Source of the DNA: Janibacter indicus
Lineage (GTDB): Bacteria; Actinomycetota; Actinomycetes; Actinomycetales; Dermatophilaceae
Direction of reading: 5' to 3'
DNA: 64,000 nt
NCBI RefSeq assembly: GCF_900176385.1
Contig: NZ_FWXN01000005.1
Span: forward strand, 186,001-250,000
Below the pieces are notes generated by a model. The model worked only from the letters and a program-made list of their open reading frames with translations, had not been told where the DNA came from and did no database searches. A program made the position numbers and the translations under genes. This document shows positions 1 through 64,000 of this stretch, piece by piece. Positions within the stretch are counted from its first letter, which is position 1, and each line of letters starts with the position of its first letter.

Positions 1-11
1 TGCGGGGGCAG

Positions 12-776
12 TCATCTCAGGTCCTCCTGGTGGTGGGGGCTGCGGGGCTGGACCGGCAGGCGCCTGGCCCACAGCCGGATCCCGTGGAGACGGATCAGGG
101 CGGTGACCCGCCAGGTCATGAGCAGGTGGCGGCCGGCGGTGCGCCAGATCGCGCCGGCGGTCGCTGGCGTCGGCACACCGGTCGTCGTCGCGGTGATCAC
201 CCGCGTGCTGGCGCGGTCCAGGCCGACGGTCACGGTGACCCGCGCAGGGTCCAGGCGCAGGCTCACCGCGTAGTCGCCCTCGGTGTCGTTGAAGGGCGAG
301 ACGTAGAACTCCTTGGCCGTCCCGGCTCGCCCGCTCGCGTCGACGTCGAGCAGGTAGGCGTGCCGCTCGCCGTAGGTGTTGTGAACCTCGAGCACGGTGG
401 CCCGTAGGTGGCCATCGGGAGCGAGGCACCAGTAGACGGTGAGCGGGTCGAAGACGTGCCCGAGGACGCGCGCGTGGGCGAGCATGACGACCCGGTCGGT
501 GGGATCGAGGTCGACGCCCCGACGAGCGAGGAAGCGCTCGAGGTCGCCACGGATCCCGCCTCCTGCCGCGCCACCCGAGAGGTGGTCGCGCGCCTCGATG
601 CGGGTGAGCAGCCGCAGCGGCCACCGGTGCCGCGGCAGGTCGGCGAGGTCGACGAGCCACTGGTAGTGGCGGTGGGTGAAGGCGTGCTCGACCGGGGTGC
701 GGCGTCGGTGGCTGACCGTCCCGACGACGAGGCTCGGCAGGGTCGGCAGCGTGGTGAGCGTGGGCGCGGTGGTCAC
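12..776 (-). CDS. DUF1365 domain-containing protein
   Basis: This is a 254-residue protein of the DUF1365 family. The visible family features are VSHRRRTPVEHAFTHRHY near the N-terminus, LGHVFDPLTVYWC in the middle and FYVSPFND further on. Its function is not established. Family members usually sit between an FAD-dependent oxidoreductase and a cyclopropane-fatty-acid-synthase-like methyltransferase, which suggests lipid modification. The GTG at 776 overlaps the stop of the oxidoreductase gene as GTGA, so I chose it over longer in-frame starts. Its own stop overlaps an ATG at 15 on the same strand, so another coupled gene, expected to be the methyltransferase, begins at the window edge. Confidence 0.85.
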   Translation of the reverse strand: MTTAPTLTTLPTLPSLVVGTVSHRRRTPVEHAFTHRHYQWLVDLADLPRHRWPLRLLTRIEARDHLSGGAAGGGIRGDLERFLARRGVDLDPTDRVVMLAHARVLGHVFDPLTVYWCLAPDGHLRATVLEVHNTYGERHAYLLDVDASGRAGTAKEFYVSPFNDTEGDYAVSLRLDPARVTVTVGLDRASTRVITATTTGVPTPATAGAIWRTAGRHLLMTWRVTALIRLHGIRLWARRLPVQPRSPHHQEDLR

Positions 777-2062
777 CACGACACCCCGAGACGCTGCGCG
801 GCCTCGACGCCCGAGCGGCACCCGTCCTCGTGGAATCCCCAGCCCAGGTGCGCCCCCGCGAAGGCGAGCCGGTCACCGCCCGCCGTGCGCAGGCGCGCGG
901 CGGCAGCGACCGCCTCGCGGGTGAAGACCGGGTGCGCGTAGTCCATCCGGGCGACGACACTCCCTTCGGCGAAGTCATCGGCAGAGTTGAGCGAGACGAG
1001 CAACTGGTCACCGGTCTCGTCGAAGCCCTGCAAGCGGTTCATCCAGTAGGTGACGCGGGGCCGGTCGGCGCCACCGCACGTGGCGCTGCGGTAGTTCCAC
1101 GAGGCACGGGCCCGCGGCGCCGTCGGGAGCAGGCTGGCATCGCGGTGCAGCACCGTCGCGTTGCGGGAGTAGCGGATCGCGGCGAGGTCCTCCCTCTCCT
1201 GCAGAGTCGCGTCGGCGAGCAGGGCGAGCGCCTGGTCGGCGTGGGTCGCGACGACCGCCCGGTCGAAGGACGTAACCCCGGCGGCGGTGCGCACGTCGAC
1301 GCCGTCGGGGTGTCGCGTCACGGAGGTGACCGGAGCACTGGTGCGCACCTCGCCCAGCCGCGCGGCGAGCGCGTCGACGTAGGTGGCCGATCCGCCGACC
1401 ACGGTCCGCCACGTGGGCGAGCCGGAGACGCTGAGCATGCCGTGGTGCTCGAGGAAGGCGAAGAGGTGCCGGGCGGGGTAGTCGAGCGAGTCATCGTCCC
1501 CGGACGACCAGACGCAGGAGACGAGCGGCAGCGCGAAGTGCGCCACGAAGTACGACGAGAATCCGCCCGAGGCGAGGAACTCGCCCCACGTCGGGTCGTC
1601 CGGGGACCTCCCTTCCCCCGGTCCGTGCAGGAGCGCCCGTGCGGCCCGGTGGAAGCGCGGGATCTCCCAGAGCATCCGCACGAAGCGGGGGTCGGCCACC
1701 CGCCGGGGCTGCGCGAGCACCGCTGCGGCGCCACGCCCCCCGGCCCACGACAGGCCGCACCCGTCGCAGGTGATGGACATGCTCATCTCGGTCGGCCGAG
1801 TCGCGATGTCGAGCTCGCGGAAGAGCCGCAGAAGGTGGGGGTAGGTGCGCTCGTTGTGGACGATGAAGCCAGAGTCGACCCGGACCTCACCGGCGGCGGT
1901 GTCCACAGTGTGCGTGTGGGCGTGTCCTCCGAGGCGCTCGTCCGCCTCGAAGAGGGTGACGTCGTAGGACCGGGCGAGGATGTGGGCGGCGGTCAGGCCG
2001 GAGACCCCGCCGCCGATGATGGCTGCGGTGGGTCGAGAGGCTCGATCTCGGGGCTCGGTCAC
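773..2062 (-). CDS. FAD/NAD(P)-dependent amine-oxidase-like oxidoreductase
   Basis: This 429-residue flavoprotein resembles the amine oxidase/desaturase superfamily. A Rossmann dinucleotide motif AAIIGGGVSGLTAA lies at about residues 13-26, followed by the FEADERLGGHAHT segment that binds the adenine end of FAD. The substrate is unknown. In relatives of this cluster (oxidoreductase, DUF1365, CFA-synthase-like methyltransferase) a role in modifying membrane fatty acids is usually proposed. The GTG start has a GGAG about 10 nt upstream. It is divergent from the SRPBCC gene, and the shared 139-bp gap carries repeated operator-like elements, so I infer control by the CarH-like regulator at 2659. 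Confidence 0.88.
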   Translation of the reverse strand: MTEPRDRASRPTAAIIGGGVSGLTAAHILARSYDVTLFEADERLGGHAHTHTVDTAAGEVRVDSGFIVHNERTYPHLLRLFRELDIATRPTEMSMSITCDGCGLSWAGGRGAAAVLAQPRRVADPRFVRMLWEIPRFHRAARALLHGPGEGRSPDDPTWGEFLASGGFSSYFVAHFALPLVSCVWSSGDDDSLDYPARHLFAFLEHHGMLSVSGSPTWRTVVGGSATYVDALAARLGEVRTSAPVTSVTRHPDGVDVRTAAGVTSFDRAVVATHADQALALLADATLQEREDLAAIRYSRNATVLHRDASLLPTAPRARASWNYRSATCGGADRPRVTYWMNRLQGFDETGDQLLVSLNSADDFAEGSVVARMDYAHPVFTREAVAAAARLRTAGGDRLAFAGAHLGWGFHEDGCRSGVEAAQRLGVSW

Positions 2063-2127
2063 GTCGTGCGCTCCAACGGGGGACGAAGGGGGGACCTCAC
2101 GGGTTCGTCGCCGAAGGGCCGCAAGGA

Positions 2128-2188
2128 TTGTTCAACCTTTGTCCAAAAGGTAGGGTGAGATCTGTCCACATGTCAAACCTTTGTCCAA
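2128..2188. promoter_or_regulatory. Divergent promoters with repeated CarH/LitR-type operator
   Basis: The 13-mer AACCTTTGTCCAA occurs twice, at 2134-2146 and 2176-2188, exactly 42 bp apart (four helical turns). Each copy sits in an imperfect palindrome, CCTTTGTCCAAAAGG for the first and CCTTTGTCCAAGG for the second. A third TGTCCA lies between them at 2163. A plus-strand promoter fits TTGTTC (2128-2133), 17 bp, TAGGGT (2151-2156). A minus-strand promoter fits TTGACA (2176 to 2171), 18 bp, TACCTT (2152 to 2147). The repeats cover both promoters. Assignment to the adjacent B12-binding MerR protein is inference. Confidence 0.7.
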
Positions 2189-2201
2189 GGATGGTTTCGT
2201 C

Positions 2202-3639: not shown

Positions 3640-4311
3640 ATGAGCACCCTGCAGACCCTCGACCGCGGCCTCGAGGCGATGGACGTCGTCGCCCGCCGCA
3701 CGGACGGCATCTCACCCGCCGCGCTCGCCGACGAGCTCGGGGTGCACCGCGCCGGCTCCTACCGCATCCTCGCGACCCTCGAGCAGCGTCACCTCGTGAC
3801 GAAGGGGGCCGACGGCCGCTACCGCCTCGGCAGCGGCGCCCTTGCCTACGCCGGCCGGTTCATGAGCCAGTACCGCCTCGCTGCCCAGCCGATCGTGCAG
3901 GAGCTCGCCGACCAGAGCGGGTGCACCGCCTTCGTCTCCATCGCCGACGGCGACGAGTCCGTCGCCATCGCCGTGGCCGAGCCGAGCGTCCGCGGGGCCA
4001 TCGGCATCAGCTACCAGATCGGGACCCGCCATCCCTTGAGCTCGGGTGCCGACGGCATCGCGATCCTGGCCCAGCGACCGCCGCGACCCGACGACCCCGA
4101 GGCCGTGCAGACCGCTCGCGCCGACGGACACGCCCTCTCCGACGGACAGATCCAGCCCGGCGCACTCGGCCTGGCCATTGGCACCGGCAGCATCGCCGAC
4201 GACGTCGAAGGCGCCGTCGGCGTCATCCGCCTGGGCCGTCCCGGCGACCTCGACGTGGCAACCCTGCTCCCCTTCGTCCAGCACGCTCGCGAGGCCGTCA
4301 CCCACCTCTGA
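3640..4311 (+). CDS. IclR-family transcriptional regulator
   Basis: This 223-residue regulator has an N-terminal helix-turn-helix (ISPAALADELGVHRAGSYRILATLEQRHLV, residues about 24-53) and a C-terminal IclR effector domain beginning near LAQPIVQELADQSGCTAFVSIADG. The family's usual size is about 250, so this is a compact member. IclR proteins commonly control aromatic degradation, including homogentisate genes, and this one lies directly upstream of hmgA in the same direction. The next gap holds a perfect 17-bp palindrome at 4356-4372, a good candidate operator. A TAGACT hexamer at 3625-3630 overlaps the previous stop codon and lies 9 nt before the ATG, so it may also be transcribed alone as a leaderless message. 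Confidence 0.9.
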   Translation: MSTLQTLDRGLEAMDVVARRTDGISPAALADELGVHRAGSYRILATLEQRHLVTKGADGRYRLGSGALAYAGRFMSQYRLAAQPIVQELADQSGCTAFVSIADGDESVAIAVAEPSVRGAIGISYQIGTRHPLSSGADGIAILAQRPPRPDDPEAVQTARADGHALSDGQIQPGALGLAIGTGSIADDVEGAVGVIRLGRPGDLDVATLLPFVQHAREAVTHL

Positions 4312-5624: not shown

Positions 5625-6457
5625 GCGCCGTGCCCGAGCAGTTCGTCGAGTTCTTCGACGACGCGGCGACCTTCCCGCCCGGGCTGGCGCCCGTCGCGCA
5701 GGCCGTGACCGATCACGTCGCGCGCCGCTCGACGCTCCTCGAGGGTGCTGTGGGTCCGGCCGTGCTGTCGCTGGCGGACCTGCCGGAGGCACGCCGGGTC
5801 GCGGCCGGCCTCGACCTCTCCGGTGGTCCGGTCGAGGTCTCCGTGGTCACCCCGGCGGGCCGGCTCCACGAGGCGCTCGACGTGGCGAAGGGGGTGACCC
5901 CCGAGCTGCAGGTCGTGGCCGTGGAGCTCAAGACGGCCCCCGACGACCGGTCGGTGTGGGAGGCCCAGATCGCCGAGGCCGCAGCGGTGACCGACCTGCC
6001 GGTCTACGTGGAGCTGACGGCAGCCCAGGTCTCGCAGGGCGCCCTCGACCTGCTGGCGGGGACCCCCCTTCGGCTGAAGTACCGGACGGGCGGGATCGAG
6101 GCGCACCTCTTCCCCACCCCGCAGGAGCTCGGCGACGTGCTCGTCGCCGCGGTGACCGCCGGGCTGCCCTTCAAGCTCACGGCGGGGCTGCACGAGGCGG
6201 TGCGCTACACCAACGCCGACACGGGCTTCACCCACCACGGCTTCCTCAACATCGCGCTGGCCACGCAGGCCGCGCGCGCCGGCGAAGACCGCGGGGTCGT
6301 CGCCGGCTGGCTCGCCGAGACCCACCCGGTGCGACTCGGCGAGGCCGTGGCCGCCTCCGACGGCGCCTGGCGCGCCTCCTTCACCAGCTTCGGCACGTGC
6401 AGCGTCGGCGAGCCCGCCGAGAGCCTGCACCGACTCGACCTCTTCCCCGCCCTCTGA
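5621..6457 (+). CDS. Conserved protein of unknown function in the homogentisate operon
   Basis: This 278-residue protein is not one I can assign to a named enzyme. It looks like a soluble alternating alpha/beta protein, possibly a barrel. Conserved-looking stretches are FFDDAATFPPGLAP at the N-terminus, LRLKYRTGGIEAHLFPTPQEL near residue 160 and PFKLTAGLHEAVRYTN near residue 185. It has no glutathione-transferase or DinB-type mycothiol-isomerase signature. It overlaps hmgA by 4 nt and is followed by fahA 14 nt later, the slot where maleylacetoacetate isomerase is often found. I therefore suggest, as inference only, a role in maleylacetoacetate/fumarylacetoacetate metabolism. Confidence 0.75.
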   Translation: MSAVPEQFVEFFDDAATFPPGLAPVAQAVTDHVARRSTLLEGAVGPAVLSLADLPEARRVAAGLDLSGGPVEVSVVTPAGRLHEALDVAKGVTPELQVVAVELKTAPDDRSVWEAQIAEAAAVTDLPVYVELTAAQVSQGALDLLAGTPLRLKYRTGGIEAHLFPTPQELGDVLVAAVTAGLPFKLTAGLHEAVRYTNADTGFTHHGFLNIALATQAARAGEDRGVVAGWLAETHPVRLGEAVAASDGAWRASFTSFGTCSVGEPAESLHRLDLFPAL

Positions 6458-7729: not shown

Positions 7730-9082
7730 GTGACCACCACCGAGCGCCTGCACGTGCGTCTGATCAAGCGCGACCTCGAGGCCGAGGCCGAGCTGCCCGA
7801 CGACGTGCAGCGCAACGTGCCGGGCAACACCCTTCGCCTGGTCGGGGCCAACGCCCTGCAGTCCTCCGGCGACCAGATGGTCAACGCCTCGACGGTCCTG
7901 CCATGGCTCTTCCACGCCATCGGTGTGCCGGCGGCGCTCACCGGCGCCCTCGTGCCGATCCGCGAGTCCGGATCGATGCTCCCCCAGGCCTTCCTCACCC
8001 CCCTCGTCATCAAGGTCCGCCAGCGCAAGCTCGTCACGCTCGTCGGCGCCCTCGTCCAGGCCCTGTCCGTCGCCGTCATGGCCGTCACCGCCGCGATCGG
8101 CAGCGGGCTCGCCGCGGGCCTGACGATCATCGTCGCGCTCGCGGTGTTCTCCCTCGGCCGCTGCCTCACGTCGATCGCCTCCAAGGACGTGCAGGCCAGG
8201 ACGGTGCCGAAGGGAGAGCGCGGCCAGATCAACGGCCTCGCCACGACCGCCTCCGGTCTCGTCGCCATCACCCTCGGCCTCGCCGTTCGCGCCCTCGGCG
8301 AAGGCCTCGACGCGCAGACGCTCGCCGCGATCCTCGGCATCGGGTCGGTGCTGTGGGTGCTCGTGGCGCTCGTGTGGTGGAGCGTGCACGAGCCGGTGGA
8401 TGCCCCTTCGGGACGGTCGCAGAGCGACCTCCTCAGGGACCGGGGCGAGGGTGAAGAGGAGCAGGACAACTGGTTCGCGCAGACGCTCACCCTGCTGCGC
8501 GAGGACGCGACCTTCCGCTCCTTCGTCACGGTCCGCAGCTTCCTGCTCGTCTCCTCGCTCAGCCCGCCCTTCATCGTCACCCTCGCGGTGCAGGCGGGGG
8601 CGCCGGCGCTCACCGGCCTTGGTGGCTTCATCATCGCCTCGGGTCTGGCCGCGCTCCTCGGCGGACGAATCTTCGGACGCATGGCCGACCGCTCGAGCAA
8701 GCGCCTGATGACGACCGGCGCTGCTCTGGCCTCCCTCGTGCTGCTCGTCCTCGTGCTGCTCGACACGTTCCTCGACCTCGACGGCGACAGCCTGGCGACC
8801 TATGCGATCTTCGTCGCCGCCTACTTCCTCGTGACGATGCTGCACACCGGCGTGCGCGTCGGGCGCAAGACCTATGTCGTCGACATGGCCGAAGGTGACC
8901 AGCGCACGACCTATGTCGCCGTCTCCAATTCCGCGATGGGCGTCGTCCTGCTACTCGTCGGCGCGATCAGCTCGGCCATCGCCGGCTTCGGCGTCATCTG
9001 GGCACTGCTCTTCCTCGCGGGTCTCGGCGTCCTGGGTGTCGTCACCTCCCGCCGCCTGCCCGAGGTCGAAGGCCTGGCGTGA
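7730..9082 (+). CDS. MFS transporter
   Basis: This 450-residue integral membrane protein has about 12 hydrophobic segments in two six-helix halves joined by a polar loop at about residues 225-250 (PSGRSQSDLLRDRGEGEEEQ). A conserved-looking loop NTLRLVGANALQSSGDQ precedes the first helix, and GRMADRSSKRLMTTG resembles the MFS loop 2-3 or 8-9 motif. The substrate cannot be read from sequence. The GTG start is 25 nt after fahA with its own TAGATT box. The stop overlaps the next MFS gene as GTGA, so the two transporters are translationally coupled. Confidence 0.8.
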   Translation: MTTTERLHVRLIKRDLEAEAELPDDVQRNVPGNTLRLVGANALQSSGDQMVNASTVLPWLFHAIGVPAALTGALVPIRESGSMLPQAFLTPLVIKVRQRKLVTLVGALVQALSVAVMAVTAAIGSGLAAGLTIIVALAVFSLGRCLTSIASKDVQARTVPKGERGQINGLATTASGLVAITLGLAVRALGEGLDAQTLAAILGIGSVLWVLVALVWWSVHEPVDAPSGRSQSDLLRDRGEGEEEQDNWFAQTLTLLREDATFRSFVTVRSFLLVSSLSPPFIVTLAVQAGAPALTGLGGFIIASGLAALLGGRIFGRMADRSSKRLMTTGAALASLVLLVLVLLDTFLDLDGDSLATYAIFVAAYFLVTMLHTGVRVGRKTYVVDMAEGDQRTTYVAVSNSAMGVVLLLVGAISSAIAGFGVIWALLFLAGLGVLGVVTSRRLPEVEGLA

Positions 9083-10485
9083 CGTCCCCCGGCGGCGTGC
9101 GCATGGCCTCCCCGCAGGGCCGCCTGCTGCTGGTGATGACGATCCTCGGGTCCGGCATGGCGGGTATCGACGCGACGATCGTGGGCGTCGCCCTGCCGCA
9201 GATCGGGCGCTCCTTCGACTCCCCCTTCGCCACCCTGCAGTGGGTCGTGACCGGCTATGCGCTCACCCTGGCGGCCTTCATCCTCCTCGGCGGCTTGCTC
9301 GGTGACCGGCTCGGCCGCCAGCGGGTCTTCGTGCTGGGCGTCGCATGGTTCACCGCTGCCTCGCTCGCATGCGGGCTCGCGCCCACCGCCTGGACTCTCG
9401 TCGCCTCTCGGGTCGTGCAGGGCGTCGGCGGCGCCCTGCTCACGCCCGCGAGCCTCGCGCTCCTCCAGTCGATGATCGTCCGCGAGGACCGGGCACGAGC
9501 CATCGGTGCGTGGGCTGGTCTGGGCGGCGTCGCGATGGCGGTCGGGCCCTTCGTCGGTGGCTGGCTCGTCGACGTCGCGTCGTGGCGCTGGGTCTTCCTC
9601 ATCAATCTGCCGATCGCTGCGGTCACGCTGGCCATCGCGGCACGCCTGCCGAGGCCCGCACCGACGGACCGGTCGCAGCAGGCCCCCCTCGACATCATCG
9701 GCGCGGGGCTGGGTGTCGTCGCGCTCGCCGGCACGACCTATGCCCTCACCGCTGCAGGCGAAGGGGGACTTCCCCCCTTCGCCGTCGTGGCCGCGGTGGT
9801 CGGGGTCGTCGCCGCGGTCGCCTTCGTCGCCCACGAGCACCGCACGGCGGCGCCGATGCTGCCGCTCGGGATCTTCCGGTCACGCACCTTCTCCACCGTC
9901 ACCGTCGTGACCTTCCTCGTCTACGGCGGGATGGGCGTGGTCTTCCTGCTGCTCGTCGTGCAGCTGCAGGTCGTCGCCGGCTGGTCACCGCTCGCGTCCG
10001 GCGTCGCCGCGCTGCCCACAACCCTGCTCATGATGGTCGGCTCGAGCCGCGCGGGCGCCCTCGGCGAGCGCATCGGGCCGCGCCTGCCGATGTCCGTCGG
10101 GCCGATCGTCATGGCCCTCGGGATCGTCCTGCTGCTGCGCACCGGGCCGACCACCGACTACGTGCTCGACGTGCTGCCGGGGGTCGTCGTCTTCGGTCTC
10201 GGCCTGACCCTGATGGTCGCGCCGCTCACCGCCACGGCCCTGTCGAGCGCGCCCGACGAGCACGCCGGTCTCGCGTCCGGCATCAACAACGCCGTCGCCC
10301 GCGCCGGGGGTCTGCTCGGCGTCGCGGCAGTGCCACCGCTGGCCGGGCTCACCGGACGTGTCGTCGAGGACCCGGCCGCCTTCGACGCCGGATTTCGCAC
10401 CGCGATGCTCGCCTGCGCCGTCGTCATCGCCGGCGGCGGGTTGCTCGCCGGAGCCGCCCTGCGGGACCGTACCGTGGAGCGGTGA
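9079..10485 (+). CDS. DHA2-family MFS efflux transporter (EmrB/QacA-like)
   Basis: This 468-residue protein has about 14 predicted membrane helices. It shows the DHA2 features DATIVGVALPQIG in the first helix, GGLLGDRLGRQRVF (motif A) and LVASRVVQGVGGALLTPASLAL (motif C-like). Such proteins export drugs or metabolites by proton antiport. It is coupled by GTGA overlaps to the upstream MFS gene and to tryptophan 2,3-dioxygenase downstream, so export of a kynurenine-pathway compound such as anthranilate is possible (inference). Inside the gene at 9757-9783 lies an 11-bp perfect inverted repeat built from two copies of the dispersed CGAAGGGGG oligomer. Confidence 0.85.
   Translation: MTSPGGVRMASPQGRLLLVMTILGSGMAGIDATIVGVALPQIGRSFDSPFATLQWVVTGYALTLAAFILLGGLLGDRLGRQRVFVLGVAWFTAASLACGLAPTAWTLVASRVVQGVGGALLTPASLALLQSMIVREDRARAIGAWAGLGGVAMAVGPFVGGWLVDVASWRWVFLINLPIAAVTLAIAARLPRPAPTDRSQQAPLDIIGAGLGVVALAGTTYALTAAGEGGLPPFAVVAAVVGVVAAVAFVAHEHRTAAPMLPLGIFRSRTFSTVTVVTFLVYGGMGVVFLLLVVQLQVVAGWSPLASGVAALPTTLLMMVGSSRAGALGERIGPRLPMSVGPIVMALGIVLLLRTGPTTDYVLDVLPGVVVFGLGLTLMVAPLTATALSSAPDEHAGLASGINNAVARAGGLLGVAAVPPLAGLTGRVVEDPAAFDAGFRTAMLACAVVIAGGGLLAGAALRDRTVER
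9757..9783. repeat. Inverted pair of the dispersed CGAAGGGGG oligomer
   Basis: GGCGAAGGGGG (9757-9767) and CCCCCTTCGCC (9773-9783) form a perfect 11-bp stem with a 5-nt loop, inside the coding sequence of the DHA2 transporter. A stem of this quality within a gene is not explained by coding alone. Confidence 0.8.
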
Positions 10486-11324: not shown

Positions 11325-12553
11325 GCGGCGCGGCAGCGGCGCTGCGGGACACGGCGACTCGGCTCGACGCGGCGGACCCCCTTCGCCACACGCGGGACCT
11401 CTACCTCCCTTCGCCAGGGCTCGTCGCCTATCTCGACGGCAACTCGCTGGGGCGCCCCCTTCGCGCCACCGCGGAACGGATCGCCGACCTCGTCGCCGGT
11501 GCCTGGGGCACCCGGCTCATCCGGTCGTGGGACGAGCAGTGGATGGACCTGCCGCTGCGGCTCGGCGACCGCATCGGCGAGGTCTGCCTCGGCGCGGCGC
11601 CCGGCCAGACCGCCGTCGGCGACTCCACGACGGTGATGCTCTACAAGCTGTTGCGCGCGGCCGTGGCCGCGGCCGGGCCGCAGCGTCCCGAGGTCGTCCT
11701 CGACACCGAGAACTTCCCGACCGATCGCTATGTGGCAGAAGGCATCGCGGCCGAGACCGGCGCCGAGCTCGTGTGGCTCGAGCCGGACCCGGCGAAGGGG
11801 GTCACCCCCGACCTCGTCGCCGGCGCCCTGACCGGTCGCACCGGTGTCGTCCTGCTCTCCCACGTCGCCTACAAGTCCGCGTGGATCGCCGACCTGCCGG
11901 AGATCACCCGGCTCGCCCACGAGGCCGGTGCCCTCGTGCTCTGGGACCTGTGCCACTCCGTCGGCGTCGTCCCCAGCGACCTCGATGCGCACGCGGTCGA
12001 CCTCGCCGTGGGGTGCACCTACAAGTTCCTCGGTGGTGGGCCGGGGGCACCCGCCTTCGGATACGTCGCGGCACACCACCAGGAGCGGCTGCGGCAGCCG
12101 ATCCAGGGGTGGATGGGCCACGCCGAGCCCTTTGCCATGGGACCGGGCTACGCGCCGGGCGCCGGCATGCGCGGCTTCATCTCCGGCACTCCCCCGGTGC
12201 TCGGCATGGTCGGCATCGAGGACACCGTCGACCTCATCGAGTCGGTGGGGCTGGATGCGGTGCGGGACAAAGCCGCTCGGCTAGGGCGCTTCGTCATCGA
12301 GTCGGTCGACGGGCTGCTCGGCGACCACGGCGTGCGGGTGGCCTCCCCACTCGACGACGAGCTGCGGGGCGGGCACGTGACATTGGCCCACCCGCGCTTC
12401 CGCGAGGTCTACCGCGTGCTGTGGGACCGCGATGTGGTGCCGGACTTCCGCGAACCCGACGGGATCCGGCTCGGCCTGTCGCCGCTCAGCACGAGCTACG
12501 GCGAGACGGCCGAGGCGCTCGTCATGGTCGACGAGGTGCTGCGCGCCGGGTGA
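11321..12553 (+). CDS. kynU: Kynureninase
   Basis: This 410-residue PLP enzyme (fold type I) splits L-kynurenine into anthranilate and L-alanine. The N-terminal YLDGNSLGRPL segment is typical. Aromatic-binding and PLP motifs follow: FPTDRYV, LWDLCHSVGVVPSDLD and CTYKFLGGGPGAPAFGYV, in which the Lys forms the Schiff base. It begins in a 4-nt overlap with kynA. Its 3' end overlaps the convergent alpha/beta hydrolase gene by 32 bp, so the two transcripts are antisense at their ends. Three copies of the CGAAGGG-type oligomer fall in its first 150 bp. Confidence 0.95.
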   Translation: MSGAAAALRDTATRLDAADPLRHTRDLYLPSPGLVAYLDGNSLGRPLRATAERIADLVAGAWGTRLIRSWDEQWMDLPLRLGDRIGEVCLGAAPGQTAVGDSTTVMLYKLLRAAVAAAGPQRPEVVLDTENFPTDRYVAEGIAAETGAELVWLEPDPAKGVTPDLVAGALTGRTGVVLLSHVAYKSAWIADLPEITRLAHEAGALVLWDLCHSVGVVPSDLDAHAVDLAVGCTYKFLGGGPGAPAFGYVAAHHQERLRQPIQGWMGHAEPFAMGPGYAPGAGMRGFISGTPPVLGMVGIEDTVDLIESVGLDAVRDKAARLGRFVIESVDGLLGDHGVRVASPLDDELRGGHVTLAHPRFREVYRVLWDRDVVPDFREPDGIRLGLSPLSTSYGETAEALVMVDEVLRAG

Positions 12554-13421
12554 TCGCGGCGAGCACCGACGGCCAGTGCGGCGAGCGCGGGTCGACGACG
12601 TCGAAGTGGTCCGCTCCGGGGAGCACGCTGCGCTCCCACCCCGCCGACTGGCGGAGGGGGACGGTCGCGTCGGCGTCCCCGTGCAGGATCGTGATGCCCT
12701 GTGCCGCAGCGTCATTGTTGCTTTGTGGAGGCATTGCCTCCCGCAGGCGAAGGGGGTCGAGGCGGGCGTAGAGCTCGGGAGCCTGCGCAGGCGTGGCGCC
12801 GATCCAGTCGCGCACGGCGTCGGTGCCGAGGCGGTCGTCGACGGCCGCGTCGAGGTCGGCGACGGGGGCCAGGGCGACGACGGGGACCGGGGGCAGCGTG
12901 GGCGTGAGCGCGCGCCACAGCACCAGGGTGCCGCCGGCGCTGTGGCCGATCCAGGCGGCGACGTCGTGGCCGTCGCCTCGCAGGAGCGCGTCGAGGGCGG
13001 CCAGGTCGGCGGTCGTCGCCTCGGGATCGCCCGGCACGCGGCGGTACTCGGCCAGGGCCACGCGCCAGCCGGCTGCCACGAGCGCGCGCGCCATGGGTCG
13101 GGCGTGGGTGCGGTCGACGCCGGGGCGGAAGTAGCCGCCGTGGACGACGACGAGGGTGCGGGAGGCGGCGTGTGAAGCGCCGTCTGGGGCGGTGCCGTCG
13201 GGGGCGGTGCCCGTCGGCGGCTCGTGGATCTCGACCACCTGGTCCGGCAGGTCGCCGTAGGCGAGCAGGGGCACCGGTTCGACGGGGTGAGGCGGGCCCC
13301 CTTCGCCTTGGAGGCGGGTGAGGGTCGCGTCCTCGGTCTCGTCGTCGACAGCCACGGCCTCACCCTCCCACGCGGCGCTCGGGTCGTGGAGGGGATTGTC
13401 GGTGGTGGCACGTACGGTCAT
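12522..13421 (-). CDS. Alpha/beta hydrolase, probable kynurenine formamidase
   Basis: This 299-residue alpha/beta hydrolase has the oxyanion motif VVVHGGYFRPG and the nucleophile elbow IGHSAGG (catalytic Ser). A C-terminal LHGDADATVPL Asp loop and ADHFDVVD His complete the triad. HGGY(W/F) plus GHSAGG is the pattern of animal/yeast-type N-formylkynurenine formamidases. Its position, convergent with kynA-kynU, supplies the missing middle step of tryptophan to anthranilate. It could be another small esterase; the assignment rests on motif plus context. No strong Shine-Dalgarno is visible. It is divergent from the SOS-controlled DUF222 gene. Confidence 0.75.
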   Translation of the reverse strand: MTVRATTDNPLHDPSAAWEGEAVAVDDETEDATLTRLQGEGGPPHPVEPVPLLAYGDLPDQVVEIHEPPTGTAPDGTAPDGASHAASRTLVVVHGGYFRPGVDRTHARPMARALVAAGWRVALAEYRRVPGDPEATTADLAALDALLRGDGHDVAAWIGHSAGGTLVLWRALTPTLPPVPVVALAPVADLDAAVDDRLGTDAVRDWIGATPAQAPELYARLDPLRLREAMPPQSNNDAAAQGITILHGDADATVPLRQSAGWERSVLPGADHFDVVDPRSPHWPSVLAAITRRAAPRRP

Positions 13422-13475
13422 GGATCAGGGGAACGGCAGGTGTGGGATGGCCGCCGGACGAGATGCCGAAGGGGG

Positions 13476-17524: not shown

Positions 17525-18513
<989 letters not shown>

Positions 18514-21016: not shown

Positions 21017-21102
21017 GCCGGCCCGCCCGCACGGTCTACCCGTGGGTCACAATGGCCGGGGCGTCCCCCTTCGCCGGGAGCACCGCCCGCCGTCCGCACC
21101 AG

Positions 21103-27985: not shown

Positions 27986-28130
27986 GATCGCTCCACCGAC
28001 ACCCCGGCACGCCGCCTGTCGCCCCCAGCACGCCGCTCGGCGCGCCGACTCCGGGGACCCACCGTCACCCCGGACGAAGGGGGATAACGTCGCCTCGACA
28101 GCGTCGTCCACACCATGGAGGAACTTCCGG

Positions 28131-44190: not shown

Positions 44191-45593
44191 GCGTGGGCCT
44201 CCCTCTGGACGATGCGGTCTCCGAGCCACCGTAGCCCGGCGTCGCGGCTGGACTTGAAGAGGACGACGTCCGGCGCGGCGAGCTCGGCGACGAGCACCGC
44301 CTCGGCCGCGTCGGCATCGGGCACGACCCGCACCCGCGGGCCGTCCTCACGAGCAGTGTCCCGTGCGCCGTCCGCGATCGCCGCAGCCGTCTCGCCGACG
44401 ACGAGGACCTCGTCGACCCCGAGCTCCGCGGCCTCGCGGCCGACGGCGGCGTGCAGCTCGTCCGAGGCGTCACCGAGCTCGAGCATCGCGCCGAGCACGG
44501 CCCAGCGACGACCGCCGGCGCCCATCGTCGCCAGGCTGCGCAGGGCGGCGGACATCGAGTCGGGGTTGGCGTTGTAGGCGTCGTTGACGACGACGACGCC
44601 GTCCTCGCGCCGGGTGACCTCCATGCGCCACCGGCTGAGCGGGCGGGCGTCGGCCAGGGCCGGCACGATCTGCTCGAGGCCCATCCCCGCGGCGTGCGCC
44701 GCCGCGATGACCGCCAGGGCGTTGCCGACGTGGTGGCGCCCGACGAGGCCCAGCCGCACCTGCGCCGTGCCGAAGGGGGCGGTGACGGTGAAGGAGGGGG
44801 CACCCGCCTCGTCGAGGGTGATGTCGGTGGCCCGCACGTGGGCGGCCGCCGACTCGCCGACGAGGACGACCTGCGCGGACGTGCGCGCCGCCATGGCGGC
44901 GACGAGCGGGTCGTCGGCGTTGAGCACCGCGACCCCGTCCGCGGGCAGGGCGGCGGGCAGCTCTCCCTTCGCCTCGGCGATCGCCTCGACCGAGCCGAAC
45001 TCGCCGACGTGGGCGTGACCGACGTTGAGGACGATGCCGATGCGCGGGGGCGCGATCCGGGTGAGGTAGTCGACGTGACCGATGCCGCGGGCGCCCATCT
45101 CGACGACGAGGTGCCGTGTGGTCGGGGTGATCCGGCAGACGGTGAGCGGGACGCCGACCTCGGAGTTGTAGGAGCCGACCGGGGCGATCGTCTCGCCGTC
45201 GACGGCGAGCACGGAGCCGAGGAGGTCCTTGGTGCTCGTCTTGCCGGAGGAGCCGGTGATGCCGATGACCGTCAGGTCGGGCCGGGAGTCGACGAGGTGC
45301 CGGGCCAGCGCGACGAAGCCGGCCTGCTCGTCCTCGACGACGACGCACGGCAGCCCGTCGACCTCGCGGGTCGTGAGGGCAGCGACGGCACCGGCGCGCG
45401 CGGCGCCGGGGACGAAGTCGTGCCCGTCGGCGCTCTCGCCGACGCGGGCGACGTAGAGGCTGCCCGGGCCCGCTTCGCGGGAGTCGGTGACGACGGGGCC
45501 GTCGACGAGGACCTGCGCGGCCTCGTCGGGGCCGCAGCCGTGGAGGCGCCCGCCGGTGATGTCGGCGACGGCGCCCAGGGTCGTGGGGATCAT
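44187..45593 (-). CDS. murF: UDP-MurNAc-tripeptide--D-Ala-D-Ala ligase
   Basis: This 468-residue Mur ligase adds D-Ala-D-Ala to complete the pentapeptide precursor. The N-terminal substrate domain contains [16 protein letters not shown]. The P-loop [15 protein letters not shown] lies near residue 116, with [26 protein letters not shown] and [13 protein letters not shown] following. The C-terminal domain has [14 protein letters not shown]. Start and stop overlap murE and mraY as ATGA-type junctions. Confidence 0.95.
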
Positions 45594-49729: not shown

Positions 49730-50739
49730 CGGTGGGGGCCTTCCTGGTGACGGGGCGGTCGGATGCGCTCGGCGCCGCGCAGGCGCACCGAGGCGGATCG
49801 GGAGTTGGTCTCGAGCTCGCGGGCGCTCGGGGTGAGCGCCCCGCGGGTGAGCAGGCGCAGCTCGGGTGCGTGCTCCGGCAGCTCGACGGGCAGGTCGGGC
49901 GGGGTGGTCGAGGCGGCGCCGGCGGCCAGGGCCCGCTTGGTGATGCGGTCCTCGAGGGAGTGGAAGGACAGCACCGCGATCCGGCCGCCCACCGACAGCC
50001 GGTCGAGGGCGACGGGCAGCGCGCGGGCCCAGCCGGCGAGCTCCTCGTTGACCTCGATCCGCAGCGCCTGGAAGGTGCGCTTGGCCGGGTGGCCACCGCC
50101 GCGCTGGGAGGCCATCGGGATCGTGGCGCGCAGCAGCTCGACGAGTCGGCCGGAGCGCTCGAAGGGGGTGACCTCCCGCTCGCGGACGATCGCGCCGGCG
50201 ATCTTGCGGGCGAAGCGCTCCTCGCCGTACTCCGAGAGCACCCGGGTCAGGTCGCGGGCGTCGTAGGTGTTGAGCACCTCGGCGGCGGTGACCCCGGTCG
50301 TGGGGTCCATCCGCATGTCGAGCGGCGCGTCGTGGGCGTAGGCGAAGCCGCGCTCGGTCTCGTCGAGCTGGAGCGAGGAGACCCCGAGGTCGAAGAAGGC
50401 CGAGGTGACGCTCGCGAGGCCGAGGTCGTCGAGGACCTCGCCGATCTCGTCGTTGACGGCGTGCACGAGGGTGACGCGCTCGCCGAAGCGGGCCAGCCGC
50501 TCCCCCGCCAGGGCCAGCGCCTGCGGGTCGCGGTCGATGCCGACGAGACGCACCTGCGGGTCGGCCTCGAGGACCGCCTCGGCGTGGCCGCCCATGCCGA
50601 GCGTGCCGTCCACGTGGACGGCGCCCTCCGTGGAGAGCGCCGGGGCGAGCAGGTCGAGGACCTCGTCGAGCATGACGGGCACGTGGCGGGAGGCCGCGTC
50701 GCGGCCGTCGGTGGTCAGGTCACGGTCGTCGTGCTCCAC
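49726..50739 (-). CDS. rsmH: 16S rRNA (cytosine-1402-N4)-methyltransferase
   Basis: This 337-residue SAM-dependent methyltransferase modifies C1402 of 16S rRNA. Motifs are [13 protein letters not shown], the SAM loop [43 protein letters not shown] and [17 protein letters not shown] 50739 has AAGGGAG 4 nt upstream, and the protein then starts close to the conserved domain; longer frames run into an upstream poly-G tract. It is the second gene of the dcw cluster, 155 nt after mraZ. Confidence 0.95.
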
Positions 50740-50766
50740 GGTGCTCCCTTCGTGCTCGTCGGTGGT

Positions 50767-51484: not shown

Positions 51485-51654
51485 CGGATTCACCGCACCG
51501 GCGGCACGAAGGGGGGTCCCCCAGGGCCGGGACCGAGGGTGCCTGTGTCTCGTGGGCCCGATTCCTAGGGCCGGAGGCCGAGCGCGACGTAGGGTCGGGA
51601 GCACATCGGAGCGAAGTGGGGACGCCACCGGCGCGGCCCCGGGACGGAGACGTG

Positions 51655-53869: not shown

Positions 53870-56151
53870 TGCGACACGAGCCCCGGGTGGTCGCCGGCCT
53901 CCTCGCCGGCCTGGCGACGATCGTCGTCGCCCTCCCCCTCGGCCGGCTCTTCGACGAGGCCCCCTGGGCCCTCCCTTCGGTCATCGGCGTCGCCGTCGTC
54001 GCCGGCACCGGCATGGTCCTGCGCTCGCTCACCACCCACGCAGGGTTGGTCGTCCTCGGGCAGGCCGCCGCGGCCAGCCTCTACCTGCTCGTCACCCAGC
54101 TCGGCGAGACGACGGTCTTCGGCGTCGTCCCCACACCCGAGACGCTCACCGCGCTGCTCGACCACTTCGAGCAGGCCCAGGACACGATCACCCGCTACGC
54201 GGCCCCCGCGCCGGCGACGCCCGGCATCACCGTCATGCTCGTCGCGATCATCGTCGTCGTCGCCCTGGCCGTCGACATGGCCAGCGCCACTGCAGCATCG
54301 CCGTCGGTCGCCGGCCTGCCGCTGCTCTCGCTCTTCCTCGTCTCGGCGGCCAACTCCGGTGGCTCGATGCACTGGGCGTGGTTCCTCGCCGGCGCCGGGC
54401 TGTGGCTCGCGATGGTCGTGCACCAGTCCGACGTCGACCTGCACGGCTGGGCGACCTCGGTCCCCCGCATGGCGCGTGGCGACGGCGAGGACATCGCCGG
54501 GCGCTCGCACCGCTGGCAGGCCGCGCGACTCGGGGCCTTCGCCCTGGTCGCCGCCGTCGCCGCGGCCACCTTCGTCCCCCACCTGCCGACCCGCTACGTC
54601 CTCGACGGGCTGGGGCGCAGCCAGGGCGGAGCGACGACCGGGTCCGGCGTGCGCCTGGCCACGGCCCTCGACCTGCGCCGCAGCCTCGAGTCGCCCAGCG
54701 AGGCCCCGGTGCTCACCTACACGTCGAGCTCCCCCACTCCGGGGCCCCTGCGGGTGGCGGTCGTCGAGGACTTCTCCGACGGCCTGGGCCGCATGCGCTC
54801 CGACGCCCCCGAGCCCGTCGAGGGCTTCTCCGCCCCGGACCCGACCCTTCGAATCCCCGGCAACGTCGTCGGTGAGCGACGCACGATGGTCGTCGAGTCC
54901 AACGGCGTCGCAGCCCCGCAGCTGCCGCTCCCTTCGCTCGTCAGCTCGGTCGACACGGGCGGCATCGCCTGGGCTCTCGGCGACGACGGCACGGCTGCCG
55001 TCCAGCGCACTCCCGGCACCTACTCGGCGACCTACACCGAACTCGCCCCCGAGGAAGAGGACTTCGACCAGCCGACGGGCGAACCCATCGACCCGCTCGC
55101 CCAGAGCGACTCCTACCTCACCCTGGACCCCGGGTCGGCGCAGGAGATCGGAGACCTCGTCGACGAGGTCGTCCCACACGACGCCACTCCCCTGCGCAGC
55201 GCCCAGGCCATCCAGGAGTACCTGCGCGGCAGCGAGTTCACCTACAGCCTCGACCTGCCCTCGTCGCAGGGGCGTGACCCGATCGTCGCCTTCCTCGACC
55301 ACAAGACCGGCTACTGCCAGCAGTTCGCCGTGACCATGACACTCATGGCCCGGGCGCGCGGGATCCCCGCCCGCGTCGCCGTCGGCTTCCTCCCCGGCTC
55401 CCTGAGCAGTGGCGACGAGCGCGTCGTGCGGGTCAGCGACGCCCACGCCTGGCCCGAGCTGTACTTCGAGGGGGTGGGCTGGACGCGGTTCGAGCCGACG
55501 CCCGGCTCACGTGCTGCGTCGACGCCCGGCTACACGATCGACACCTCCGACGCGAGCGCCGGCACCGACACCTCGACCTCGTCCGACGAGACGACGAGCT
55601 CCTCGACCCGCCCCGACGACCAGCAGGAGGACGTCGCGGTCCCAGAGGCCGCGACCGCGCCCGACGAGGGTCGCCCCGCCTGGGTCACCGCGCTGCTCTG
55701 GCTGCTCGGCATCGCCGCCGTGCTGGCGATCATGCCGCTGTCGGCGCTCGTGGCCCGTCGCCGCTCCCGCCGCTCGGCCGTCGACGACGCCGAGCGGGTC
55801 GAGCGCGAGTGGCACGAGCTGATCACCCAGCTCGACGACCTCGGGCTGCGCCCACCGGTCGGCGCGACCCCGCGGCAGACCGGCGCCTGGCTCAGTCGGC
55901 GCCTGCATCTCGAGGGCGAGCCGCAGGAGCAGCTCGACCACGTCGTCGCCACCCTCGAGCGCGCCCGCTACGCCCCGCCCGGAGCCGACCTGCCCGACAT
56001 CTCCCACGAGGTCGGCGGGGTCGTCGACGAGGTCCGCTCCGGCCGGCAGCGCTCGCGACAGGTCCGCTCGGTGCTGTGGCCCCAGGACGGCGTCGACGCG
56101 TGGCGCGCGTTCGGCCGCTCGCTCCTGCGCCGCCTGCCTCGTCGCCGCTGA
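53866..56151 (+). CDS. Transglutaminase-like membrane protein (DUF3488/TgpA type)
   Basis: This 761-residue protein has about seven N-terminal helices (DUF3488 region, residues 8-235), then an extracellular part with the transglutaminase core. The catalytic Cys is in GYCQQFAVTMTLMARARGIPARVAVGFLPG (near residue 484), with His and Asp in SDAHAWPELYFEGVGWTRFEPTPG. A Thr/Ser-rich linker, one more helix (about 605-630) and a DUF4129-like cytoplasmic tail follow. With MoxR and DUF58 it forms a conserved three-gene unit of unknown envelope role. Confidence 0.92.
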   Translation: MMRHEPRVVAGLLAGLATIVVALPLGRLFDEAPWALPSVIGVAVVAGTGMVLRSLTTHAGLVVLGQAAAASLYLLVTQLGETTVFGVVPTPETLTALLDHFEQAQDTITRYAAPAPATPGITVMLVAIIVVVALAVDMASATAASPSVAGLPLLSLFLVSAANSGGSMHWAWFLAGAGLWLAMVVHQSDVDLHGWATSVPRMARGDGEDIAGRSHRWQAARLGAFALVAAVAAATFVPHLPTRYVLDGLGRSQGGATTGSGVRLATALDLRRSLESPSEAPVLTYTSSSPTPGPLRVAVVEDFSDGLGRMRSDAPEPVEGFSAPDPTLRIPGNVVGERRTMVVESNGVAAPQLPLPSLVSSVDTGGIAWALGDDGTAAVQRTPGTYSATYTELAPEEEDFDQPTGEPIDPLAQSDSYLTLDPGSAQEIGDLVDEVVPHDATPLRSAQAIQEYLRGSEFTYSLDLPSSQGRDPIVAFLDHKTGYCQQFAVTMTLMARARGIPARVAVGFLPGSLSSGDERVVRVSDAHAWPELYFEGVGWTRFEPTPGSRAASTPGYTIDTSDASAGTDTSTSSDETTSSSTRPDDQQEDVAVPEAATAPDEGRPAWVTALLWLLGIAAVLAIMPLSALVARRRSRRSAVDDAERVEREWHELITQLDDLGLRPPVGATPRQTGAWLSRRLHLEGEPQEQLDHVVATLERARYAPPGADLPDISHEVGGVVDEVRSGRQRSRQVRSVLWPQDGVDAWRAFGRSLLRRLPRRR

Positions 56152-56183
56152 CTCCCCCTTCGCCCCAGAGGTCGCGGAGTGCG

Positions 56184-57731: not shown

Positions 57732-57830
57732 CAACAACCTTTCGTCACGGAGGATTCCGCCGGGACGAAGGGAGTGGCGTGACCCCGTCTGACCCGACTC
57801 GCCCGGTCGCTGTGCGCTGGGCTCGTGACC

Positions 57831-59662: not shown

Positions 59663-60778
59663 TCACGAGGCGCGCCCGATCGAGTCGCGTCCGGGCTGCG
59701 GACCCTCGGCCGGGGGCAGGGCCCACGGACGCACCCCCGTGGCCAGCAGACGGAGCATGAGGTCGGCCAGCCGGTGCTCGGGGTCGATCTCGAGGGCCCG
59801 CTCGAGGCAGATGCCGGTGATCGTGCCGTCACCGGCCCACCAGGCGAGGTGCGCCACGGTGACGAGCACCGTGGGCGTGAGCGGCTGCGGCAGGAGCCGG
59901 GCGAGCTCGACGAGCCGACCACGGACGACGAGCAGCTCGTCCGACCAATCCCCTGCCTGCGGCAGCTCGTCGTCGCCCTCCCAGCAGTCGACCCAGGGGC
60001 ACTCCGCCGCCGCGTCGAGGGCGAGCCAGCCGACCTCGAGCGGCACGTCGTCGAGCGAGAAGAACCCCGGCGCGAGCACGGCCATCAACGCGTCGCGCCA
60101 CTGGACGTCGAGCAGCGAGCCGCCCAGCACGGCCAGCTCGGCATCGGGCAGGTCACCGACCGGTCGCGCGCTGCGCCGCGGGTCGAGCACGTGGGACCAC
60201 AGCGCGGCGAGCTCGTCGTCGTCGACCGGCACGGGCTCGCCCGACACGATGACCTGCGCCACCCCCTCGGCGCGCGTCTCGTCCGTCGGCGGCACGACGG
60301 TGGCGACCAGCTCCTCACGACTGGCGAGCGGCCGCACCCCGGCCATGACGAAGGGGGCGACCGCCGGCACCTCCTCGGGCCGCGGGAGCGCGCGCACCTG
60401 CGGCGGGCAGCACCCGTCGTCGCACCCCGGGACCCAGCACCGGCCGTCGCGCACGACGACGTGGTCAGGGACGGCGAGACCGGCCGCCAGGGCCGCCGAG
60501 GTGACGGCCGCGCGGAAGGGGCGGGAGCCCCCTTCGTCGTCCTCGAAGGCGAGCACCACGACCCCCTGCGCCCGCTCGCGGACCATGATCGCGATGCTGT
60601 GCTCGGCGAGAGCGGCGCAGGCCCGGGGGTCGTCGACGAGGTCGAGGCGCTGGACCATCCCGAGCCGCCGACCGTGCAGGGCGGCGAGGACGAGGGATGG
60701 ACCCGGGTGGTAACCGAGCTGGTAGGGCACGAGGACGGCGAGCTCGGAGGCGTCGCGGGGGCTGGCGGTCGGTGTCAT
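59663..60778 (-). CDS. DUF4192 domain-containing protein
   Basis: This 371-residue protein of unknown function is widespread in actinobacteria. The family start is visible as ASELAVLVPYQLGYHPGPSLVLAALHGRRLGMVQRLDL, followed by DHVVVRDGRCWVPGCDDGCCPP and a C-terminal repeat-like helical part (LVTVAHLAWWAGDGTITGICLERALEIDPEHRLADLM). The clustered Cys residues near residue 120 are noteworthy. ATG 60778 begins the conserved region; the frame upstream is unsupported and no good ribosome site is seen. Confidence 0.85.
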   Translation of the reverse strand: MTPTASPRDASELAVLVPYQLGYHPGPSLVLAALHGRRLGMVQRLDLVDDPRACAALAEHSIAIMVRERAQGVVVLAFEDDEGGSRPFRAAVTSAALAAGLAVPDHVVVRDGRCWVPGCDDGCCPPQVRALPRPEEVPAVAPFVMAGVRPLASREELVATVVPPTDETRAEGVAQVIVSGEPVPVDDDELAALWSHVLDPRRSARPVGDLPDAELAVLGGSLLDVQWRDALMAVLAPGFFSLDDVPLEVGWLALDAAAECPWVDCWEGDDELPQAGDWSDELLVVRGRLVELARLLPQPLTPTVLVTVAHLAWWAGDGTITGICLERALEIDPEHRLADLMLRLLATGVRPWALPPAEGPQPGRDSIGRAS

Positions 60779-62890: not shown

Positions 62891-62934
62891 GAGACGAGAG
62901 CTCCCTGTGGCGAGTGTCACGGACCCGCGGGAGG

Positions 62935-63669
62935 CTACCCGACGTCGACGCTCGCGGCCGGGAACTCGGTGCGCACGTGCGCGCCGATCTGCCGCATCAG
63001 CCACACGTCCATGCCGGCGCCCACGGCACCGCCGACGACCGGCACGGCCTTGCCGAAGCGCGTGAAGACGCCCTTGCCGGCGGTCGAGAGGATGCGGAAG
63101 CCGACGGCCTTGTTGACCACCATCAGGGCCGGCCCGGGCAGTCGCTGGGCGGCCATGCCGGCGAGCCGGCCGGTGGGCGCGACGACCCCTGCCTTGGCGA
63201 GCAGGTCCTGGGCGTCGGCACCGACGAGGCTGAGCAGGACGGCGGAGCGGATCTCGGGCTGGGCGAGGTCGTAGCCGCGCAGTCGGGCCACGGCCGCCGA
63301 CATCCGGGTCGCCAGGACGTAGAAGCCCAGGACATTGGCCGGCAGGGCGACGACCATGGTCGCGAAGCCGCCGAGGTTGGTGAGGAAGCCGCTGGCACCG
63401 GCGAGCTTGAGCGTGTCGCCGACGACCTCGTCGACCGCCTTGTCGACGTCGCCGCCGTGCTTGGCCAGCGCCTTGTCGGCGACCTGCGCCGCGGAGTCGA
63501 AGGGGCCGCGACCGTCGATGCCGGTGTCGAGGAGGTTTTCGACGAGCTTGAGCGAGGAGCCGGACAGGCCTTGGCGGCTCTTGGGGTCACGCGCCTGATC
63601 GAGGGCGGTCCGCGTGTCCTGCACCTGCTTCTTCTTGCCGAAGCCGAGTCGGTCGGAGATGAATCCCAT
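62935..63669 (-). CDS. EcsC-like protein
   Basis: This 244-residue protein resembles the EcsC family. After a polar start (MGFISDRLGFGKKKQVQDTRTAL) come alternating amphipathic and hydrophobic segments: SGFLTNLGGFATMVVALPANVLGFYVLATRMSAAVARLRGYDL, then VGADAQDLLAKAGV and a Gly-rich KAVPVVGGAVGAGMDVWLMRQIGAHVRTEF. EcsC function is not established. The ATG at 63669 begins the family-like region. It is divergent from the partial gene at the window end. Confidence 0.75.
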   Translation of the reverse strand: MGFISDRLGFGKKKQVQDTRTALDQARDPKSRQGLSGSSLKLVENLLDTGIDGRGPFDSAAQVADKALAKHGGDVDKAVDEVVGDTLKLAGASGFLTNLGGFATMVVALPANVLGFYVLATRMSAAVARLRGYDLAQPEIRSAVLLSLVGADAQDLLAKAGVVAPTGRLAGMAAQRLPGPALMVVNKAVGFRILSTAGKGVFTRFGKAVPVVGGAVGAGMDVWLMRQIGAHVRTEFPAASVDVG

Positions 63670-63714
63670 GTCGGCATCCTGCCACGGCGAAGGGGGCCCG
63701 TCGGTGGACGCGGG

Positions 63715-63720
63715 TAGCCT
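63715..63720 (+). promoter_or_regulatory. -10 box of a probable leaderless promoter
   Basis: TAGCCT ends 8 nt before the GTG at 63729. Confidence 0.4.
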
Positions 63721-63728
63721 CACGCACC

Positions 63729-64000
63729 GTGGGTGGACAGCAGCCGGGAGCCGTCGTCGTCGGGGTCGACGGTGTGGGTGCGGCGCTCCCCCCGCACGGC
63801 GATCCCGTGCTCGCGCGGGACCTCCCTTCGCTCGTCGCCACCCTCTCCCCCGGCACCCGCTGGGTGACCTGGTCGGCCGCCTCGGTCGCCCCGCTCGTCA
63901 CCGCCGGCGCCCGCCTGGACCGCACGTGGGACGTCGCCGAGGCGCACCGTCTGGCCCACGGCGGCTGGGCCGCAGGGCCCGAGCTGGCCTGGGCCGCGGT
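63729..64000 (+). CDS. Partial: N-terminus of a probable 3'-5' exonuclease/DNA polymerase
   Basis: From GTG 63729 a plus-strand frame stays open to the window end (about 90 residues). Segments RWVTWSAASVAPLVTAGARL and RTWDVAEAHRLAHGGW resemble the start of the actinobacterial PolA-like bifunctional 3'-5' exonuclease/DNA polymerase proteins, where a 'W...(A)PLL..GVR..R..D' stretch is followed by helices. The gene is cut by the window end, so the call is tentative. A TAGCCT box 8 nt upstream suggests a leaderless message. Confidence 0.5.
   Translation, partial: MGGQQPGAVVVGVDGVGAALPPHGDPVLARDLPSLVATLSPGTRWVTWSAASVAPLVTAGARLDRTWDVAEAHRLAHGGWAAGPELAWAA

Follow-up and report, generated by a model that had tools for sequence, protein, structure and literature searches.

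A candidate DNA uptake sequence of Janibacter and its putative dialects in related genera

Why does one nine-base word recur dozens of times, within genes and between them, in a short piece of an actinomycete chromosome? The piece in question is a stretch of 64,000 nucleotides of Janibacter indicus (positions 186,001 to 250,000 of contig NZ_FWXN01000005.1, assembly GCF_900176385.1), the whole of which we call the window, and the word is CGAAGGGRG. A sequence-only reading of the window had reported it as over-represented and dispersed, with 26 and 15 copies of its two forms (24 plus, 17 minus) and no strong strand skew. These counts were slightly low: there are 28 copies of CGAAGGGGG (17 plus, 11 minus) and 16 of CGAAGGGAG (8 plus, 8 minus), which makes 44 in total (25 plus, 19 minus), and the example positions agree with the exact ones to within 8 bases. 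The excess itself is real and genome-wide. In 200 dinucleotide shuffles of the window the mean is 1.73 and the maximum 7, and an order-4 Markov model expects 1.8 and 1.5 copies of the two forms; CGAAGGGCG occurs twice and CGAAGGGTG once. The whole genome (3.42 Mb in 29 contigs, with the window on contig 9) holds 2409 copies, evenly divided between the strands (1201 plus, 1208 minus), versus 26 (13, 13) of the reversed word, and for the longer form GRCGAAGGGRG the counts per strand are 695/691 versus 1/1. We propose, with a probability of roughly 0.7, that Janibacter and one sister genus use CGAAGGGRG as their DNA uptake sequence; uptake, competence and a receptor are inferred from the genomes. 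The 9-bp copies in the window are listed below, with gene or intergenic status taken from home-made gene calls.

960..968, minus strand, motif copy CGAAGGGAG, in gene
2084..2092, plus strand, motif copy GACGAAGGGGG, intergenic
3800..3808, plus strand, motif copy in gene
5886..5894, plus strand, motif copy in gene
6064..6072, minus strand, motif copy in gene
8208..8216, plus strand, motif copy in gene
9221..9229, minus strand, motif copy in gene
9759..9767, plus strand, motif copy, arm 1 of a convergent hairpin pair inside a predicted gene (predicted minimum free energy -24.9 with its partner)
9773..9781, minus strand, motif copy, arm 2 of the hairpin pair with 9759..9767
11377..11385, minus strand, motif copy in gene
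11405..11413, minus strand, motif copy in gene
11455..11463, minus strand, motif copy in gene
11793..11801, plus strand, motif copy in gene
12748..12756, plus strand, motif copy in gene
13297..13305, minus strand, motif copy in gene
13467..13475, plus strand, motif copy in gene
17797..17805, plus strand, motif copy in gene
18780..18788, minus strand, motif copy in gene
18884..18892, plus strand, motif copy in gene
20766..20774, plus strand, motif copy in gene
21065..21073, minus strand, motif copy in gene
23275..23283, plus strand, motif copy in gene
28075..28083, plus strand, intergenic motif copy
31014..31022, plus strand, motif copy in gene
34313..34321, plus strand, motif copy in gene
34745..34753, minus strand, motif copy in gene
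35441..35449, plus strand, motif copy in gene
38204..38212, minus strand, motif copy in gene
38693..38701, plus strand, motif copy in gene
42498..42506, plus strand, motif copy in gene
43704..43712, plus strand, motif copy in gene
44771..44779, plus strand, motif copy in gene
44963..44971, minus strand, motif copy in gene
50160..50168, plus strand, motif copy in gene
50744..50752, minus strand, intergenic motif copy
51507..51515, plus strand, intergenic motif copy
53971..53979, minus strand, motif copy in gene
54928..54936, minus strand, motif copy in gene
56154..56162, minus strand, intergenic motif copy
57766..57774, plus strand, motif copy in gene
60349..60357, plus strand, motif copy in gene
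60528..60536, minus strand, motif copy in gene
63688..63696, plus strand, intergenic motif copy
63822..63830, minus strand, motif copy in gene

The shape of the word was determined in a 464 kb sample of the same genome, consisting of the window and 20 further stretches. The 510 CGAAGGG sites of this sample yield the consensus G-R-CGAAGGG-R-G, with flanks further out near background, and GRCGAAGGGRG is found 192 times where 8.2 are expected. Single substitutions at the seven core positions mostly occur about as often as expected; the outer positions are less strict (for example, 31 sites with A as the final base versus 4.4 expected). Genes in the sample were called with the home-made gene finder, in place of a standard annotation, and some of the calls look as if they were on the wrong strand. 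By these calls, 258 copies lie in genes (110 sense, 148 antisense) and 85 between genes, corresponding to densities of 0.61 per kb and 2.19 per kb, a 3.6-fold difference. Codon and dipeptide usage, which might have explained the copies fully, does not do so, since 100 within-gene synonymous shuffles give 32.9 +- 4.6 coding copies (maximum 43). Copies occur least often in the frames that read CGA-AGG or CCT-TCG (13 and 24). That the copies often force the Leu codon CTT, as had been suggested, is true of the 52 of 258 coding copies that have CTT in frame but not of the rest; these account for 52 of the 863 CTT codons in the sample.

The word has a narrow taxonomic range. All 16 genomes of the genus carry it, from 444/450 to 1289/1312 copies per strand. 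Among 99 genomes of the family, representing 53 genera, five carriers in two genera were found, and the other 94 have at most 68 copies per strand. Both sampled genomes of the sister genus g38, which is likely Marihabitans, are carriers; the DnaE protein of the window genome matches J. limosus at 93% and, next, Marihabitans asiaticum at 85%. A sample of 297 genomes of the order contains no carrier beyond the same five, and the word is not raised in the other 292. In named loci, CGAAGGGRG is seen in Janibacter limosus and Marihabitans. Loci from outside the family (Cellulomonas, Geodermatophilus, Nocardioides, Kocuria and others) contain 0 to 2 copies of this word, and likewise of CGGCATAC, introduced below. 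The contrast with the 94 family genomes that are not carriers and with 273 genomes from other families is stronger than that with the reversed word. The latter is an imperfect control, because a further word, CGAGACCGA, outnumbers its own reversal in each of the 10 family genomes searched.

Related genera are rich in other words. A survey of 20 kb each from 16 other genera revealed CGGCATAC in seven, in each of which it occurs 8 to 19 times. Of the 99 family genomes, 52 (30 genera by hand count) have 300 or more copies per strand, the highest count being 2376, and eight further family genomes have 94 to 180 copies; the five CGAAGGGRG carriers have only 2 to 18 per strand. In the order sample, 13 of 297 genomes reach the level of at least 300 per strand, and every one of them belongs to this family. 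Named loci with CGGCATAC comprise four of four from Knoellia, three of four from Phycicoccus, one from Humibacillus xanthopallidus and several from metagenome-assembled genomes. The reversed control is also raised in CGGCATAC carriers, presumably in part through overlap with extended copies. In G015 CGGCATAC is embedded in a long motif of about 18 bp, approximately AGCYCAGCGGCATACGGC. Within one genus the counts per strand are 519/543 (G025), 9/10 (G069) and 1852/1829 (G096), a contrast that makes a natural comparison for finding a receptor. A one-base variant, CGGCATCC, was first noticed in a locus of Humibacillus sp. DSM 29435 (18 versus 2.0). It exceeds a level of 900 copies per strand, with 983 to 1977, in five of the 99 family genomes, from genera g17, g27 and g44, compared with 111 to 674 in the other 94, and its reading as a third dialect held up. 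Two genomes of g44 are rich in both words (G044 with 608/609 and G079 with 623/566 for CGGCATAC; 1091/1104 and 983/1116 for CGGCATCC). No CGAAGGGRG carrier in the family sample is rich in either.

In a tree built from 24 DnaE rows, the clade of CGAAGGGRG carriers (support 100/100) nests among CGGCATAC carriers, its sister row carries CGGCATAC, and the CGGCATAC label needs six changes. The simplest reading is that Janibacter may have replaced its dialect. We also searched for further words in 24 to 60 kb each of six genomes with neither CGAAGGGRG nor CGGCATAC (G001, G009, G010, G013, G041 and G049). Of the words seen there, CGAGACCGA in G009 had the greatest fold excess (10 versus 0.7). It was rejected as a genus word because it is present in all 10 family genomes searched (G000, G037, G032 and others, CGAAGGGRG carriers included), with 59 to 258 copies per strand, about 3- to 16-fold over its reversed form by strand sums.

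The copies are also placed in a distinctive manner. Pooled over five genomes, CGAAGGG pairs no more than 45 bp apart are convergent (CGAAGGG followed by its reverse complement) in 53 cases and divergent in 12, with about 7.3 expected per class. The convergent pairs come from our own sample (17), G074 (17), G037 (7) and G038 together with G075 (12); for G074 and G037 the scan used CGAAGGGG, which G074 prefers followed by G or T, and triplets can count twice. The 9-bp arms pair by construction, and many stems extend well past the word. In our own sample, 11 convergent pairs are intergenic, eight in tandem and three in convergent gaps, with none in the 56 divergent gaps. The hairpins predicted for convergent pairs are terminator-like. 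With respect to replication, the G-rich strand, used in place of a mapped origin, holds 109 of 197 copies (55%, hand tally) in 19 spaced stretches of G074; a twentieth stretch, with zero skew and 9 copies, was left out. CGGCATAC is on both strands in all 19 stretches of G015. A skew among the matches listed for three genomes (only plus copies in G375 and G081, almost only plus in G073) was taken as an artefact of listing, since whole counts are balanced and one G073 stretch has 7 plus and 6 minus copies. Copies are dense along most of the chromosome sampled, and their spacing is approximately random except for two long gaps in the 464 kb. One copy-free stretch of 37.8 kb lies on contig 7; among the eight proteins scanned there, one of which spans its end, four have RTX, Ig-like, sortase or FUSC-type matches and four have none. 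The other, of 13.8 kb on contig 22 (G+C 0.646), has polysaccharide-type genes, judging by the protein starts. Finally, pooled over four relatives, 16 of the 27 copies that could be aligned are retained exactly, above the 9-mer baselines of 0.19 to 0.38, the numbers being small; no alignment with G038 passed the filter.

Genes for a putative competence machinery are present as well. The window genome has comEA (SLBB and helix-hairpin-helix domains) followed by comEC, and ComEC was detected in all 24 family genomes scanned. Four matches to pilus-type ATPases exceed the cut-off, all in Tad/Flp-type loci, in which names other than that of the ATPase were read from gene order and protein starts. 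These four loci (L073-L076) look like at least three kinds, and L073, at a contig end, adjoins what by eye is a transposase-like fragment. In the actinomycete Micrococcus luteus, according to one study, transformation needs comEC and Flp pilus genes (PMC4322843).

How might such a word have become so numerous? In the mechanism that we propose, a surface receptor, probably a minor Flp/Tad pilus subunit or a partner of ComEA, would bind word-bearing DNA during natural transformation, so that DNA of the cell's own kind would enter through ComEC and then recombine. Alleles with a copy would be taken up and re-spread more often, and through this drive copies would accumulate by the thousand on both strands, in places that tolerate them. 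Convergent intergenic pairs may additionally have become the stems of terminator-like hairpins. Related genera would use the dialects CGGCATAC and CGGCATCC, and the specificity of the receptor would have switched on the branch leading to Janibacter. The genomic anatomy fits most of the testable hallmarks of an uptake-sequence system: high copy number, occurrence on both strands, inverted terminator-like pairs, dialects in related genera and competence genes.

Among known systems, the uptake signal sequence (USS) of Pasteurellaceae also has a conserved short core. It has an extended form too, which the 18-bp form in G015 recalls. Unlike here, it is another word in another phylum and probably serves another filament. 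Neisseriaceae and Pasteurellaceae are described as the only families with known uptake words in a 2025 paper, which also covers the DNA uptake sequence (DUS) of Neisseriaceae, as here a short word repeated hundreds or thousands of times (PMC12616744). According to a second paper, related genera likewise differ in their DUS dialects, and all DUS-dialect genomes have high numbers of inverted DUS pairs, which are associated with terminators (PMC3630211); the presence of CGGCATAC and CGGCATCC in one genus resembles its one-nucleotide simDUS/kingDUS case of S. muelleri. Acquired islands can be detected by an unusual DUS density, as stated in a third (PMC7371117). In contrast to the one-base DUS dialects, CGAAGGGRG and CGGCATAC are unrelated words, and both are unrelated to the DUS. 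A further difference from the Neisseriaceae system is that the carrier is a high-GC actinomycete; the four pilus-type ATPase matches of the window genome lie in Tad-type loci, and we found no ComP-type receptor. Micrococcus luteus is likewise an actinomycete, with comEA/comEC and tad loci that form its uptake machinery; the terms 'sequence-specific' and 'uptake sequence' are absent from the main text of that study, which accordingly reports no uptake word there (PMC4322843). Our literature search returned no actinobacterial uptake word among the matches listed, preprints and most subscription papers being outside its scope. The system would work like DUS and USS while being a member of neither known family, probably with an independent origin. 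We lean slightly towards the broader view that it would be a third independent origin of password-controlled transformation and the first in monoderms, acting via Flp/Tad pili. Its dialects would be family-wide (CGGCATAC, CGGCATCC, the long form of one genus and, in Janibacter and its sister, CGAAGGGRG as an unrelated word), and at least one dialect would have been replaced completely.

If this is true, uptake specificity arose once more, in cells with another kind of envelope and probably with a different filament, which would provide a replicate for asking why it evolves at all (mating barrier, receptor bias or molecular drive). It would also predict which laboratory strains are transformable, and with which DNA tag.

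Several results weigh against an uptake sequence. No gene tracked the word, and neither the Tad small proteins nor ComEA yielded a receptor candidate, a ComP-like pilin included. The tad-type loci sampled do not follow the word, none of the Tad small proteins in 18 loci could be singled out by eye as a receptor, and a ComEA alignment of 13 genomes, also judged by eye, shows no dialect-linked pattern and leaves ComEA unsupported as the protein that sets the dialect. Moreover, every sampled genome that is without both CGAAGGGRG and CGGCATAC has ComEC too, and the five of these whose locus was read all have ComEA. Core variants with one substitution show no general enrichment, a sharper outcome than might follow if drive were simply balanced by mutation. 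Pairs of CGGCATAC are in excess in G015 and the 11 named loci but not in six other 20-kb samples, and do not favour the convergent arrangement (8 convergent and 14 divergent, where about 2.1 of each are expected). Only 5 of 30 exact copies are conserved in G074 (baseline 0.195), again with small numbers; 3 of the 25 losses are changes to T, which G074 also accepts. The foreign origin or recent arrival of the two copy-free stretches is a candidate explanation drawn from the 464 kb sample rather than from a systematic survey. The literature search found no paper on natural transformation in Janibacter. Finally, RecC (PF04257) is present in all five CGAAGGGRG carriers.

This last observation belongs to the main rival, a Chi-like hotspot at which RecBCD (or AdnAB) would recognise CGAAGGGRG and turn from nuclease to repair, selection for repair having raised the copy number. 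Chi is likewise a short G-rich word repeated through the chromosome, here in thousands of copies. In E. coli it is strongly biased to the leading strand, whereas the strands here are near balanced and even the G-rich strand of G074 holds just over half of the copies; convergent hairpin pairs and the intergenic excess are not expected of Chi either. Moreover, 9 of 13 tested CGGCATAC carriers have no RecC, and 8 of 12 genomes with neither word have it. Since RecC is thus found in 5 of 5, 4 of 13 and 8 of 12 genomes, a RecBCD-Chi system cannot cover both words. For CGAAGGGRG alone it is possible; it fits poorly, and we consider it unlikely.

Still less probable is a binding site for a nucleoid or chromosome-organising protein. 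The high density and the approximately random spacing outside the two long gaps would suit such a site, which would predict neither inverted pairs nor the swap to unrelated or one-base-changed words, and the 20 stretches of G074 have no clear regional pattern of copies. We give very little credence to the idea that a DNA methyltransferase or an anti-phage modification system targets CGAAGGGRG, with copies kept numerous as a mark of self: the word is short, sharp and asymmetric, as sites in modification systems can be, yet hairpin pairs and dialects are not predicted, and restriction targets tend toward avoidance rather than enrichment. A composition or codon artefact, conceivable at a G+C content of 72% and with some reading frames matching common codons, is refuted by the synonymous and dinucleotide shuffles and by the unraised counts in the order sample, and a dispersed repeat element by flanks that are near background beyond about two bases. 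Of the four candidates named by the sequence-only reading, the uptake-like one is the best supported, through balanced strands, inverted pairs, long gaps and dialects in related genera, and the Chi-like one is disfavoured.

The dispersed repeats that do occur in the same genome look unlike the CGAAGGGRG copies. A palindromic element, CTGCATTGCC-STAS-GGCAATGCAG, which by eye resembles repetitive extragenic palindromes or bacterial interspersed mosaic elements (REP/BIME), recurs about ten times in the 464 kb sample, two copies often lying next to each other (G000 contigs C7, C8, C9 and C22; L008 near 5780-5830; L014 near 7183 and 17073). Tandem repeats of the form GTTGGTCGAGGTGCGAGG...CGAGCCTCGAGACC and related TCGCACCTCAACCAGCG arrays lie in L020 (near 2627-2770 and 5699-6115) and L013 (near 2348-2460). 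In G015, dispersed ATCGAAAGAGCAGTTCGTCCC-type repeats are found, often in facing sets (L196-L199, L204, L206 and L210).

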